Source of the DNA: Siccirubricoccus phaeus
GTDB taxonomy: Bacteria; Pseudomonadota; Alphaproteobacteria; Acetobacterales; Acetobacteraceae
Assembly: GCF_008360935.1 (NCBI RefSeq)
Contig: NZ_SRXO01000032.1
Coordinates: forward strand, 1 to 53,980
DNA length: 53,980 nt
Direction: 5' to 3'
Position 1 is the stretch's first letter, and each line of letters begins with the position of its first letter. Shown one piece after another: positions 46,660 to 53,523 of the stretch. Both the position numbers and the translations under genes were made by a program. The notes under the pieces are model-generated. The model was not told where the DNA came from. It saw only the letters and a program-made list of their open reading frames with translations, and made no database searches.

Positions 46660-49248
<2,589 letters not shown>

Positions 49249-49430
49249 GGGAGGGCTCTGCCCTCCCTCTCACGTTGGACGCAGTGCGTCCAACCCCACC
49301 CGCAAAGGGCCGAAGGGCCCTTTGAACCCTTGAGTTTTGCGTCTCGACCGACGGGTCCAAGACTCATGGTTTCCAAAGGCCTTTCGGCCTTTGGCGGGTG
49401 GAGCTCGAGGAGGGCAGAGCCCTCCTCGAC
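49249..49430. repeat. Inverted pair of hairpin repeats at the clpB / SurE-fusion junction
   Basis: Left half: GGAGGGCTCTGCCCTCC, GTTGGACGCAGTGCGTCCAAC and CAAAGGGCCGAAGGGCCCTTTG hairpins. Right half: CCAAAGGCCTTTCGGCCTTTGG and CGAGGAGGGCAGAGCCCTCCTCG, in reversed order. The halves are diverged inverted copies between convergent genes and probably act in both transcripts, for example as a bidirectional terminator. Confidence 0.65.
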
Positions 49431-52118
49431 CTACAGCAGGTCCGCGCTGCCCGCCTTCACATCCAGCGCAAACGCCAGGAACTGCGTCACCTGCGTGTCG
49501 CTGAAATTGTCGTCCGCCACCATCACCAGGCTCTTCCGCCCATCCGCCAGGTCGGGGCCGAAGGTCATGCCCTCGATATTGTCGAGCGGAATGCCGAGGT
49601 CATCCAGGTCCAGCAGCAGCGTCTTCTGCGCCGGAATGTAATCCTGCCCCGCCAGCGCCGGCAGGCCCGAGACATCCGTCGCATCCTCCGTCCGCACCAG
49701 GTACAGCCGGATGTCGTTGCCGGCAACGCCGGTGGAGAAGGACCGCTCCAGCGCCAGCATGGTGCCCTGGTTGTCCAGCGCCAGCAACTCCGCCAGCCCG
49801 TTGGTGGCGAAGGCATCGACCGGCATCGGTGCATCGACGATGGGGTCGGTCAGATAGGCGTATTCCGCCGTCTCCTGGCCCGTCGCCGTGTCATAGGCCA
49901 GGATGCGCGAAGGCGAGCCGGCCTCGACCGTTGCATCCGGCCCGTCCTGGTACAGCGCATCCTCCGTGCCGACGAACAGCGTCTTGCCGTCCGGCGTCAC
50001 GGTCAGCCCCTCGAAGGCCAGGTTGTTGCGGATGCCCGAGGATTCGTCGGCGGTGGGCGTGAATTTCTCATCCACCGGCAGCTCCGCGATGCGCTGCCCC
50101 GTCAGGTCGAACTGCGCCACGAAGGGCGAGATGAGCTGGCTCGCATCGCCCTCCGAGGAGAGATAGAGCGTGCCGTCCGGCGCCAGGGCCAGCCCCTCCG
50201 GGTCCAGCGAATTGGCCGGGAAATGCTGGCCATCCTCCTGCCCTAGCCGGTGCACGCCCTTGAAGGCGACATCGCCCTGGGAGAGCGCGCCATCCTCCAG
50301 CCCGATATCCAGGGTGAAGAAGCGCGCATCCGCCGAGCGGTCATCGGCGAGCGCGTAATACTGCCCCGTCGCCGCATCCCAGGTGATGGCGGAGAGCCCA
50401 CCGATCTGCAGCCCGCCGAAGCTGTGGCCGAAGCCGATATCGCTCTCGCCGAGGAATTCGATGCCGCCGACCCGCGCCTCACCGGGGAACAGGCCGGTGC
50501 TGGTCGGCAGGCCGAATGGCACGCCGAGCAGGTCGCCGATGAAGTCGTAGGCGCCGAATTCCTGGGCGCCGTAATTCGCGTCGATCGGCGTGACGGTGAT
50601 GTGGCCGGCAGCGAAGGCATTGCCCTCCGCCAGCGGATCGTCCGTCACCACCGGACCGCCGAATTCCAGCTTCGCCTCGCCCTCCGTGCCGGTCGCCACG
50701 GCGCGCAGGTCGTGGTCGGTGGCGGCGTCCATGCGGGTGAAGACCACGTCGGACGGATTGGCGTATTTCGGGATGTTGACGTTCAGCCCGACGCCCTGCG
50801 GCAGCAGCGTACCATCGGCGCCCGCCGTCGCCTGCAGCTCCAGGATCAGGTCGGCGGTGATCTGGCTGGCATGCCACAGGCTGCACCAATCGGTGCCGTG
50901 CGACGAATCCACCTCGGTGGAGACGGCGATGGAGGGCACGCCGTAATTGAACACGCCGGCGACGGCGGCGGCCAAGGTGCCGGACGTCACGCCCTCATAG
51001 CCGAGGCTCGGCCCACCATCGATGCCGGAGACGATGAGGTCAGGCCGCGCCACGCCGGTCAGCAGCGCGTCCAGCCCGGTATAGACCGTGGTGCTCGGCG
51101 TCGCCGCCACCGCATAGCCATCCGTGGTGTGCTCCACGGCGAAATCCGTCAGCGTCAGCGCGGTGCCGAGGCCGTCCTGCGCACTCGCCGGCGCCACCAC
51201 CGTGACCTCGTAGCCGAGATCGAGCAGGGTCTCGCGCAGCAGCTCGAGGCCCGGCGCATCGGCGCCTTCCTCATTCACCAGCATCACCTTCAGCGGCTGC
51301 GCCTCGGGCCGGTCCCAATCGCCCAGCTTGCCGTCCAGCCGGTCCTCCAGCGCCAGGCGCTGCTGCTCGGAGGCCGTCCAGTTCCCGTCGATGGGCGAGA
51401 GCGTCACCCGGCCTTCGAGGAATTGCGCGCCCTCGGAGATCGGGTTGCCGGAGGGATCGGTGTTCGGCGTGAAGGTGGAGTTGTAGAGGCCGCTCGGCTT
51501 CTCGCCGATCGGGTAGCTGGCGGAGGATTCCTGGTCGATGCGCGTGATGGCGAGGCCGAGCGGATCGGCAGTGCCGGGGATGTTGATGGAGAGCCCCTTG
51601 CCGCCGGGGATCAGTGCGCCGCCTTCCGGCCGCGCCGCCTCGAGCTTGTCCAGCAGGCTGACGAGGAATTCCGCCGAATTGGCGTAGGCAGTGTCATAGC
51701 TGCCATCCTCGGAGCCGGCCGAGAGGGCGATGGCCGGAATGCCCCGCTGCAGCGCCGCGACGGCGGCGTTCACGGTGCCGGAGATGTTCTCGCTCTCCCC
51801 GGTATTGTCGCCCCGGTTGGTGCCGGAGATGACGATGTCCGGCGCCTCGCCGCCGAACAGGTCGAGCACGTCGAGACCAACCAGCGTGGCAGCGACGGGG
51901 CGGCCATCCACCGCGTAATTGCCGGGCGAAAATTCGGTGACGGCGAAGGGCTCGTCGAAGGCGGCGGGGCCGCCGAGCGAGCTGCCCTGTGCGCTCTGAT
52001 TCGCCGCGGGCGCGACGATGTGGACATTCTCCCCGGCGGCCTTCAGCGCGTCATAGAGCGCGATGAGGCCTGGCGAATCATAACCGTCATCATTGGTGAG
52101 AAGTATGTTGAGCGACAT
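49431..52118 (-). CDS. Three-domain fusion: SurE nucleotidase, degenerate SurE, phytase-like esterase domain
   Basis: The 895-residue protein starts MSLNILLTNDDGYDSPGLIA, an intact SurE (5'/3'-nucleotidase) active site: N9-D10-D11, GSSLGG near 45-50, VISGTNRGDN (98-103) and ISGTVNAAV (112-120). A second SurE-like module (about 277-520) has KVMLVNEEGADAPGLELLRE and LIVSGIDGGPSLGYEGVTSG: Asp-Asp has become Glu-Glu and the Asn of SGxN is Asp, so its metal site is probably lost or altered. From about 545 to the end, LGESDIGFGHSFGGLQIGGL, EGLALAPDGTLYLSSEGDAS, AFEGLTVTPDGKTLFVGTED and LDNIEGMTFGPDLADGRKSL match the esterase-like/phytase-like beta-propeller domain. The protein is acidic, without signal peptide or membrane segment. 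GGAGG precedes the ATG at 52118. No recognisable partner gene is adjacent. Substrates are unknown; SurE alone acts on nucleotides and exopolyphosphate. Confidence 0.85.
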   Translation of the reverse strand: MSLNILLTNDDGYDSPGLIALYDALKAAGENVHIVAPAANQSAQGSSLGGPAAFDEPFAVTEFSPGNYAVDGRPVAATLVGLDVLDLFGGEAPDIVISGTNRGDNTGESENISGTVNAAVAALQRGIPAIALSAGSEDGSYDTAYANSAEFLVSLLDKLEAARPEGGALIPGGKGLSINIPGTADPLGLAITRIDQESSASYPIGEKPSGLYNSTFTPNTDPSGNPISEGAQFLEGRVTLSPIDGNWTASEQQRLALEDRLDGKLGDWDRPEAQPLKVMLVNEEGADAPGLELLRETLLDLGYEVTVVAPASAQDGLGTALTLTDFAVEHTTDGYAVAATPSTTVYTGLDALLTGVARPDLIVSGIDGGPSLGYEGVTSGTLAAAVAGVFNYGVPSIAVSTEVDSSHGTDWCSLWHASQITADLILELQATAGADGTLLPQGVGLNVNIPKYANPSDVVFTRMDAATDHDLRAVATGTEGEAKLEFGGPVVTDDPLAEGNAFAAGHITVTPIDANYGAQEFGAYDFIGDLLGVPFGLPTSTGLFPGEARVGGIEFLGESDIGFGHSFGGLQIGGLSAITWDAATGQYYALADDRSADARFFTLDIGLEDGALSQGDVAFKGVHRLGQEDGQHFPANSLDPEGLALAPDGTLYLSSEGDASQLISPFVAQFDLTGQRIAELPVDEKFTPTADESSGIRNNLAFEGLTVTPDGKTLFVGTEDALYQDGPDATVEAGSPSRILAYDTATGQETAEYAYLTDPIVDAPMPVDAFATNGLAELLALDNQGTMLALERSFSTGVAGNDIRLYLVRTEDATDVSGLPALAGQDYIPAQKTLLLDLDDLGIPLDNIEGMTFGPDLADGRKSLVMVADDNFSDTQVTQFLAFALDVKAGSADLL

Positions 52119-52317
52119 GGCGACCTCCGCAGGATCCCGGCGGCAGCGGGACTAGAGGCCGGTCGATGACGGTCACCCGCACGTCGCGGATCACGAATCA
52201 CGGATTCCGGAGCCGCATCCGTGCTGTCCAGGAATGGCGCGCGGGCAGCGCGTTGTTCTGCCACCACTGTTCCGGCTCCGGGCCACTCGCCGGTGCCCGC
52301 GGCCGCAGTGGCGCGGA

Positions 52318-53523
52318 TCAGGGCGCCAGCGCCACCTCCTGCCAGGGCGACAGCTGCGAAAGATGCGCCGCCAGCACCGCCTGCCGGGCGCGGAAGGCGG
52401 CAAGCTGAGGGCCTTCCAGCCGCAGCGCCGGCACCGCTTCCAGCCGCGCCGGATCCACCGGGCGGCCATCCGCGATGACCTCGAAATGCAGATGCGGGCC
52501 GGTCGCCAGGCCGGTGGCGCCGACGCGGCCGATCACCTCGCCCTGCCGCACCGCCGTGCCCGGCCGCATCGTCGCGCCGATGGCGGAGAGATGGGCGTAG
52601 AGCGTTTCCCGCCCGCCCGCATGGGTCAGGCGCAACACCCGGCCATAGCCGCTGCGCCAGCCAGCCTCCGCCACCACGCCATCGGCCGCGGCGAAGACCG
52701 GCGTGCCGCGCGGTGCGGCGAAATCCACCCCTTGGTGTTGGCGGGTGAAGCCCAGCACCGGATGGCGCCGCTGGCCGAAGCCGGAACTCACCTTCGCGCT
52801 TTCCAGCGGCGTGCGGAGGAAGGCGCGGCGCAGGCTGCGCCCGGCCGCGTCGAACCACTCGCCGCCATTCGGCGTCTCCTGCCGCCAGAGCGTCAGGCGC
52901 TGGCCGGAGAGGTGGAATTCGGCATAGACGGCCGCGCCGTCGCGCAGCACGCGGCCCTCGGCGTCGCGGAAGCGCTCGAAGAGGATGGTGAAGCGGTCCC
53001 GCGGGCCCACCTCGCGCTGCAGGTCCACGGCTTGGGCCAGGCTCTGCACCAGTTCCCGTGCCAGGGGGGCAGGCAGGCCGGCGGCGCGCAGATCCTCCAC
53101 CACCACGCCACGGATGGCGCCGGCGGCCAGCGCCAGGCGGCGATAGGCCCGCGCCGCCACTTCCTCCGTCCGCCAGCCGGCGCCGTCCCTCGTGGCGGTG
53201 ACGAGGCGGCCGGGTTCGGGCTCGAGGGCAAGGCCGATGAGGCGGTCCGTAGCGGCGTCCTGCTGCAGCGTCAGCGCCTGGTCGGGGCGCAGGCGCTGGC
53301 CGGGCAGGTAGGGGGAGAGGGCGGCCAGGGCGGGCGCGGCCTGCTCTGGCGGGATGCCGGCGGCGGCGAGGAGGCGGGCAGGGGAGTCCTCGCCCACCGG
53401 CTGCAGCCTGTGGGTGACCTGGTGGGGTGTTTCTGCCGGGGGCTGGGCCGGAGCGGGGACGGCTTCGAAAGCGAGGCAGGCGAAAACGGCGCAGCGCCAC
53501 AGGCGCCGCCGGCGATGCGGCAT
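52318..53523 (-). CDS. Exported M23-family metalloendopeptidase (murein hydrolase)
   Basis: A 401-residue protein with a basic signal peptide (MPHRRRRLWRCAVFACLAFE, cleaved after PAPA), an N-terminal LysM-like/helical region (PYLPGQRLRPDQALTLQQDA) and a C-terminal lysostaphin-type M23 domain. The zinc motifs are SGFGQRRHPVLGFTRQHQGV (HxxxD with Asp of GVDFAAPRG) and the GPHLHFEVI (HxH) motif. It cleaves peptidoglycan cross-links in the periplasm, or positions amidases like NlpD/EnvC when inactive; here both metal motifs are intact. It diverges from the rRNA-operon promoter at the right edge. Confidence 0.9.
   Translation of the reverse strand: MPHRRRRLWRCAVFACLAFEAVPAPAQPPAETPHQVTHRLQPVGEDSPARLLAAAGIPPEQAAPALAALSPYLPGQRLRPDQALTLQQDAATDRLIGLALEPEPGRLVTATRDGAGWRTEEVAARAYRRLALAAGAIRGVVVEDLRAAGLPAPLARELVQSLAQAVDLQREVGPRDRFTILFERFRDAEGRVLRDGAAVYAEFHLSGQRLTLWRQETPNGGEWFDAAGRSLRRAFLRTPLESAKVSSGFGQRRHPVLGFTRQHQGVDFAAPRGTPVFAAADGVVAEAGWRSGYGRVLRLTHAGGRETLYAHLSAIGATMRPGTAVRQGEVIGRVGATGLATGPHLHFEVIADGRPVDPARLEAVPALRLEGPQLAAFRARQAVLAAHLSQLSPWQEVALAP

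Follow-up and report, generated by a model that had tools for sequence, protein, structure and literature searches.

The window analysed here is a 53,980-nucleotide stretch of DNA from the soil bacterium Siccirubricoccus phaeus, and our subject is a single minus-strand gene in it, whose product joins an intact SurE nucleotidase domain, a second SurE copy with an altered metal site and a C-terminal Phytase-like beta-propeller in one chain. The gene and its parts lie as follows:

49431-52118, minus strand: fusion gene, SurE, pseudo-SurE and Phytase-like propeller; 895 amino acids, 95% identical to its Siccirubricoccus soli ortholog
52124-52128, minus strand: ribosome-binding site GGAGG, five bases ahead of the fusion ATG, read from the sequence
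51324-52118, minus strand: domain 1 (residues 1-265, approximate boundary), SurE with intact ligands; Pfam match at 51525-52106, ligand columns aligned
50514-51293, minus strand: domain 2 (residues 276-535, approximate boundary), SurE fold with E283, E284, D315 and D367; Pfam match at 50727-51287
49503-50408, minus strand: domain 3, PF13449 Phytase-like beta-propeller, from Pfam, the model and its propeller matches

The reading frame runs from the ATG at 52118 to a stop codon that ends at 49431. Pfam recognizes two PF01975 SurE stretches in the protein (1.2e-73 for the whole chain), which separately score 139.4 bits in domain 1 and 117.2 bits in domain 2 against a cut-off of 22.1; TIGR00087 gives the whole protein 228.8 bits against a cut-off of 135.1, and PF13449 covers residues 571-872 at 3.1e-91 (306.7 bits against a cut-off of 27.6, and 310.7 bits in the genome search). 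The true 3-phytase family, PF02333, has no Pfam match in the protein at E up to 1. The composition is strongly acidic, with a calculated pI of 4.05, 4.3% Lys plus Arg and one Cys in 895 residues. A sequence-only reading of the stretch had predicted an acidic protein of this length, position and start, with an intact first SurE domain, a second one bearing Glu-Glu and SGID, a C-terminal phytase-like beta-propeller, no signal peptide and no export partner next to it, and each of these predictions is borne out, the last two by hydropathy and by the neighbouring genes looked at. The frame does not owe its existence to chance, because a 95% identical ortholog occupies the same place in S. soli KC 17139, likewise between a gene for an M23 peptidase and clpB, and because the dN/dS between the two genes is 0.23. 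The fusion is a real, selected and lineage-restricted assembly of modules whose kinds are already known.

How narrowly the assembly is distributed became apparent from overlapping draws of genomes, in which full-length matches occur in 2 of 147 genomes of relatives, 1 of 385 drawn from the class, 2 of 397 from the family and 1 of 398 from the phylum (at most two candidates were scored per genome for class, family and phylum), all of them being the window genome or S. soli; among the 397 family genomes these two are the only ones with the architecture, which the sequence-only reading had suggested looking for in this family. A single scan of 84,980 species genomes with two SurE peptide patterns, limited to the best 80 of 141 confirmed stretches, yielded the exact order at one of these 80 loci, that of S. 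soli, and a SurE-SurE tandem at seven, the other 73 being judged single by frame length; tandems of other wording were missed because only two patterns were used. The tandem hosts are S. soli, Roseomonas aerilata, Bradyrhizobium cenepequi, Kushneria indalinina, Kushneria pakistanensis (recovered in the phylum search too), a Xenococcaceae genome and Richelia. Within the genomes searched, the three-part order is therefore confined to Siccirubricoccus, and the earlier impression of an order not known from characterised proteins stands to that extent; it does not extend to the components, since the tandem occurs in five other genera and the propeller in other multi-phosphoesterase fusions.

The tandems of Kushneria, R. 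aerilata and B. cenepequi (L083, L084/L074, L081, L082) have their two SurE domains in the same order as the window protein, to which they are 50-60% identical in domain 1 and 42-50% in domain 2, and they share its changed domain 2 ligands, its acidity and its non-hydrophobic N-terminus; the three that were measured are free of Cys. Unlike the window protein, they have no propeller after the tandem. The C-terminal part is instead a tail with no strong Pfam match in Kushneria, CBM60 in R. aerilata (whose chain reads Calx-beta, EEP nuclease domain, SurE twice and CBM60 in Pfam) and cadherin-type domains with five RTX stretches in Bradyrhizobium. The frame directly after a Kushneria tandem (L074:10148-11512) resembles by eye an outer-membrane porin. 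The Xenococcaceae protein L085 (Phytase-like, Phytase, PhoD, SurE twice) and the Richelia protein L086 (EEP, Phytase-like, SurE twice, Phytase, GDSL lipase, PhoD, DUF4114) are like the window protein in uniting a tandem and a PF13449 propeller in one acidic chain whose N-terminus is not hydrophobic, but in these the propeller precedes the tandem and phytase and PhoD domains are added. Among the other-genus tandems, two carry RTX or other calcium modules and three carry other phosphoesterases, and the ten fusions measured, the window's included, span a pI of 4.05-4.55 and a Cys content of 0-0.26%.

The two SurE copies of the window protein differ at the metal-ligand positions. Domain 1 has the motifs N9-D10-D11-G and S98-GTNRGDN, whose counterparts in domain 2 are N282-E283-E284-G and S364-GID, and the alignment places D10, D11, S42 and N101 of domain 1, the complete Asp-Asp-Ser-Asn set, opposite E283, E284, D315 and D367. 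Since Asp315 replaces the Ser as well, all four ligand positions of domain 2 are changed; the Ser of this set we take to be a metal ligand of SurE. The Asp pair and the conserved Asn are placed at the SurE metal site in the accessible part of PMC8475336, and D8/D9 in that of PMC3567009. Domain 1 is intact at these positions in all seven tandems aligned, and domain 2 has Asp for Asn in all five proteobacterial ones along with other changes, its remaining positions reading E-D-S in Roseomonas and Bradyrhizobium, D-G-Q in the two Kushneria and E-E-D in the window. Compared between the two Siccirubricoccus orthologs, dN/dS amounts to 0.13 for domain 1, 0.25 for domain 2 and 0.28 for domain 3. Domain 2 is under purifying selection and not drifting freely, given its value of 0.25, and we likewise set aside neutral decay as an unlikely account of it between these two species.

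Selection of this kind would also fit if domain 2 had become a working site of a new type, in which the all-acidic E-E-D-D set binds another metal, such as calcium, and acts on or senses another substrate, an explanation to which the four acidic residues in the window and the Asp at the Asn position in five of five proteobacterial copies also lend themselves. We consider it distinctly unlikely: the other positions vary by lineage (ED-S-D in Roseomonas and Bradyrhizobium, DG-Q-D in Kushneria) and the branch leading to domain 2 of the window is longer than that leading to domain 1 (0.82 versus 0.34). The lineage-specific substitutions read more like loss than like a single conserved new site and weaken the case for an all-acidic one. 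The pseudoenzyme that the sequence-only reading had proposed for the middle of the chain is a plausible description. A mixed full-length alignment misaligned the SurE rows, so that tandem and propeller were folded separately; the best tandem model, built from only eight sequences, reaches a pTM of 0.85 and a mean pLDDT of 83.9, and the 50 best Foldseek matches shown among solved structures are all SurE structures. In Salmonella SurE, according to the accessible part of PMC3567009, the active site lies near the dimer interface, one subunit supplies the catalytic residues of a site, and mutants with altered dimer geometry are inactive or nearly so; the retention of a dead half as a dimer partner would fit this.

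A midpoint-rooted tree of 70 SurE domains includes 56 of 105 single domains after thinning at 72% identity; the species-genome scan supplied part of the single-domain rows, which are skewed toward the LNILLTND wording. The tree separates 27 canonical rows from a branch of 43 (support 100/99), inside which all 14 tandem domains and one Skermanella single domain form one clade (98/91), and canonical alphaproteobacterial SurEs make up a clade separate from the window domains. The grouping of proteobacterial domains 1 and 2 has a support of only 86/52, and both domains of each cyanobacterial tandem fall in one group (99/96), from which it follows that duplication took place twice or that the copies were homogenised. 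The Skermanella single domain, on plasmid pSM-1 of Skermanella mucosa (L052:6016-6765), groups with domain 2 (99/97); it reads SGAD at the Asn position while retaining NDDG, lacks by eye a stretch ahead of the SGAD motif, and has IS110 transposase genes within about 4 kb on either side.

Membership of this branch bears on where the protein acts. We recorded a signal-peptide-like segment wherever a 13-residue hydropathy window of at least 1.5 stood just ahead of the domain, using no signal-peptide program and rows and starts of our own choosing, and found one in 27 of 28 single-domain members of the tandem-containing branch as against 1 of 27 canonical rows; in the 28th member, L087, a hydrophobic window lies further upstream by eye. 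Canonical SurE from E. coli, Salmonella and Thermotoga shares its fold and the catalytic motif of domain 1 with the window protein, from which it differs in being a single-domain homo-oligomer belonging to a family that a review files as intracellular (accessible part of PMC8475336). The propeller follows a similar pattern. The 34 propeller rows examined comprise 12 fused ones, 18 judged stand-alone by frame rather than by Pfam and four with no testable start (rows whose match starts inside the domain, L007, L011, L049 and L051, were left out of the hydropathy test), and a hydrophobic window of at least 1.58 stands in front of all 18 stand-alone propellers. One of the 12 fused rows, L183, has a value of 1.67 ahead of the propeller, inside the chain. 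In a set of 12 fusion N-termini that takes in SurE tandems, none reaches 1.5, the highest being that of Bradyrhizobium at 1.38. Standing alone, SurE and propeller modules both seem to leave the cell by way of a Sec-type signal, and in fusions they appear without it. The window protein itself shows no N-terminal signal peptide by hydropathy; the sequence-only reading was correct on this absence, which should not be taken at face value given the signal-peptide-like segments of the branch and the RTX and CBM60 modules of the relatives.

A cytoplasmic nucleotidase that replaces a missing housekeeping SurE, with the propeller in a regulatory or scaffolding role, would account directly for a chain with no signal peptide, no RTX repeat and no adjacent exporter, all the more as the window genome has no other SurE and the tandem is likewise the only SurE of R. 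aerilata. Against it stands the position of both domains in the branch with signal-peptide-like segments instead of the canonical one, together with the hydrophobic segments in front of 18 of 18 testable stand-alone propellers and the RTX or CBM60 modules in tandem relatives; moreover, a genome of the same genus, G002, has no SurE match at all, so that no stand-in is needed. We therefore regard a cytoplasmic role as unlikely. A related possibility, that of a housekeeping SurE to which a domain was added, was rejected on the basis of the tree and of the additional canonical-type SurE in tandem genomes: a stand-alone SurE accompanies the tandem in four of the five tandem genomes searched, and all six such copies lie nearest the canonical rows.

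With a location outside the cell indicated by the RTX or CBM60 modules of tandem relatives and the signal-peptide-like segments of branch singles, the question becomes one of route. Substrates of type I secretion are acidic and poor in Cys, lack an N-terminal signal and have an exporter in the genome. The fusion shows these traits in its composition and N-terminus, and the window genome encodes, away from the locus, a PrtD-type exporter (690 bits against a cut-off of 510, a cut-off exceeded in 0 of 14 control genomes) with HlyD as the next gene. The same genome encodes a large protein (L182:1080-6515, contig C23, minus strand) with no visible signal peptide, whose domains are SdiA-regulated, cadherin, two LTD stretches, 5'-nucleotidase C-terminal, RTX and FG-GAP repeats. 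Type I secretion of the fusion is possible because this exporter and this large RTX protein with a nucleotidase domain coexist in the genome.

The propeller model is nearly all-beta, with a mean pLDDT of 94.8 and a pTM of 0.93, and resembles several kinds of solved beta-propellers, paraoxonase, human apyrase and xylonolactonase among them, with no TM-score above 0.49 in the 50 rows shown. A PF13449 alignment of 27 rows with the window first contains 20 invariant columns, of which nine are acidic (D94, E96, E111, E158, E174, D180, E246, E304 and D324 in the numbering of the 350-residue segment). In the window genome PF13449 also matches strongly within two other frames, of 477 and 392 amino acids, and weakly within the large RTX protein. 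Elsewhere the propeller is fused, in the absence of SurE, to GDPD (G076, G434), EEP (G654), Phytase (G502, in a frame cut at its start), GDPD and EEP (Indioceanicola), and EEP, GDPD and Phytase (G236), and the true 3-phytase domain PF02333 is present in L043, L055, L085 and L086. On a plasmid of Indioceanicola profundi a PhoX family phosphatase gene stands just ahead of the GDPD-EEP-Phytase-like gene (L053:933-3131).

Phosphate is also the theme of one expression study. In the accessible passages of PMC9846622, Nodularia nsp7010, an atypical alkaline phosphatase described as an esterase-like activity of phytase family protein, is up under phosphate limitation (5.53 and 3.82 in two minus-phosphate columns whose unit the passage does not give), as is nsp6490, a GDPD with a phytase domain (4.63 and 5.45); nsp7010 is akin to proteins of other cyanobacteria in what is accessible of PMC3610870, shares the family annotation of our propeller and is likened to it by annotation, not sequence. 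SurE is mentioned in the main text of neither paper. The suggestion of the sequence-only reading that a nucleotidase and a phosphoesterase-like propeller together scavenge phosphate may thus be upheld by analogy, from the propeller partners GDPD, EEP, PhoD and 3-phytase and from the Nodularia report. These same data bear on a different proposal, namely that the fusion recycles extracellular DNA or nucleotides, dephosphorylating what a nuclease elsewhere has freed, as a source of carbon and nitrogen no less than of phosphorus. It draws on the exo/endonuclease-phosphatase domain that precedes the R. aerilata tandem in the same chain and on its counterpart in the Richelia protein; in view of the otherwise phosphate-related partners of the propeller (GDPD, phytase, PhoD) and the induction of a protein annotated to its family under phosphate limitation (PMC9846622, as far as accessible), we deem it very unlikely.

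Taken together, the explanation that we favor, with a probability of roughly 0.55, is that the fusion is an exported scavenger of organic phosphate in which the second SurE is a pseudoenzyme and makes up one half of an internal dimer. Domain 1 would be a metal-dependent nucleotidase or phosphomonoesterase from an exported SurE branch, and domain 2 a SurE copy whose catalytic metal set is gone but which persists as the partner, within the same chain, on which a SurE active site depends; a single chain would thereby form a pseudo-dimer with one working site. The propeller could act as a second phosphoesterase, possibly a calcium-using one, or as a substrate-binding unit, and the chain would leave the cell most likely by type I secretion, since it has neither a Sec nor a Tat signal.

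Several observations weigh against this explanation. Pfam finds no RTX repeats in the fusion at E up to 1, the tail after the propeller is very short, with no recognisable C-terminal export signal, and there is no exporter among the adjacent genes looked at (M23 peptidase, clpB); with no RTX repeat and hardly any tail, the export route is therefore one that we infer from relatives. The ClpB of the window is likewise low in Cys (0.12%), and composition alone is therefore no proof of export. Both SurE copies keep D-D-S-N in the two cyanobacterial tandems aligned, and a dead half is therefore no rule of the tandem. The other four tandem models reach a pLDDT of only 63.8-71.1, compared with 83.9 for the best. 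Sequence comparison turned up no solved relative of the propeller, the best chain giving only E 0.15, and an esterase or phytase activity of the propeller would be a matter of its family label. Finally, no Pho-box stands just upstream of the start, the window having two matches where 1.73 are expected.

The history of the gene can be read in part from its surroundings:

52318-53523, minus strand: gene for an M23 peptidase, next upstream of the fusion gene and in the same orientation (Pfam PF01551, 7.6e-34)
46660-49248, plus strand: clpB, convergent with the fusion gene, named by sequence recognition with no profile search

Two of three genomes of the genus have the fusion, the third, G002, being the one with no SurE match. 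The ClpB and M23 matches end about 30 bases apart in G002 and about 550 in the more distant G654, and no match to the fusion lies in the clpB-M23 interval of either. A third genome with no fusion and with clpB and M23 nearly abutting suggests that the gene was gained, and gain in the Siccirubricoccus lineage is a simpler reading than a less likely loss in G002. The dS to S. soli is 0.12 for the fusion, threefold lower than for the M23 gene (0.36); a 393-codon stretch of clpB gives 0.17. With a value below those of its neighbours, the fusion gene may have been exchanged after the two species separated. No sigma-70-type promoter was found for the fusion gene. Between its stop and clpB lies a perfect 17-nucleotide inverted repeat (49250-49266 and 49409-49425, with 142 nucleotides between the arms), which shares the gap with smaller palindromes and could represent a repeat element or a bidirectional terminator.

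Looking beyond this gene, we see about even odds for a broader account in which there is an exported SurE branch, the tandem within it is a one-chain heterodimer with one dead half, this module is exchanged between secreted multi-phosphoesterase proteins in Alphaproteobacteria, Kushneria and cyanobacteria, and a propeller version of its own has been put together in Siccirubricoccus. The exported branch and the tandem with one dead half may be the new parts; neither these nor the present architecture is described in the literature as searched by titles and the beginnings of abstracts, a search that left subscription papers mostly outside and does not prove absence. If true, an exported SurE branch would give environmental phosphorus cycling a further enzyme class, one that annotation hides under a housekeeping name. 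The tandem, in turn, would be a natural experiment on whether activity at a SurE site depends on two working sites or just on a structural partner, an issue akin to that of the domain-swap work on the Salmonella enzyme in the accessible part of PMC3567009.

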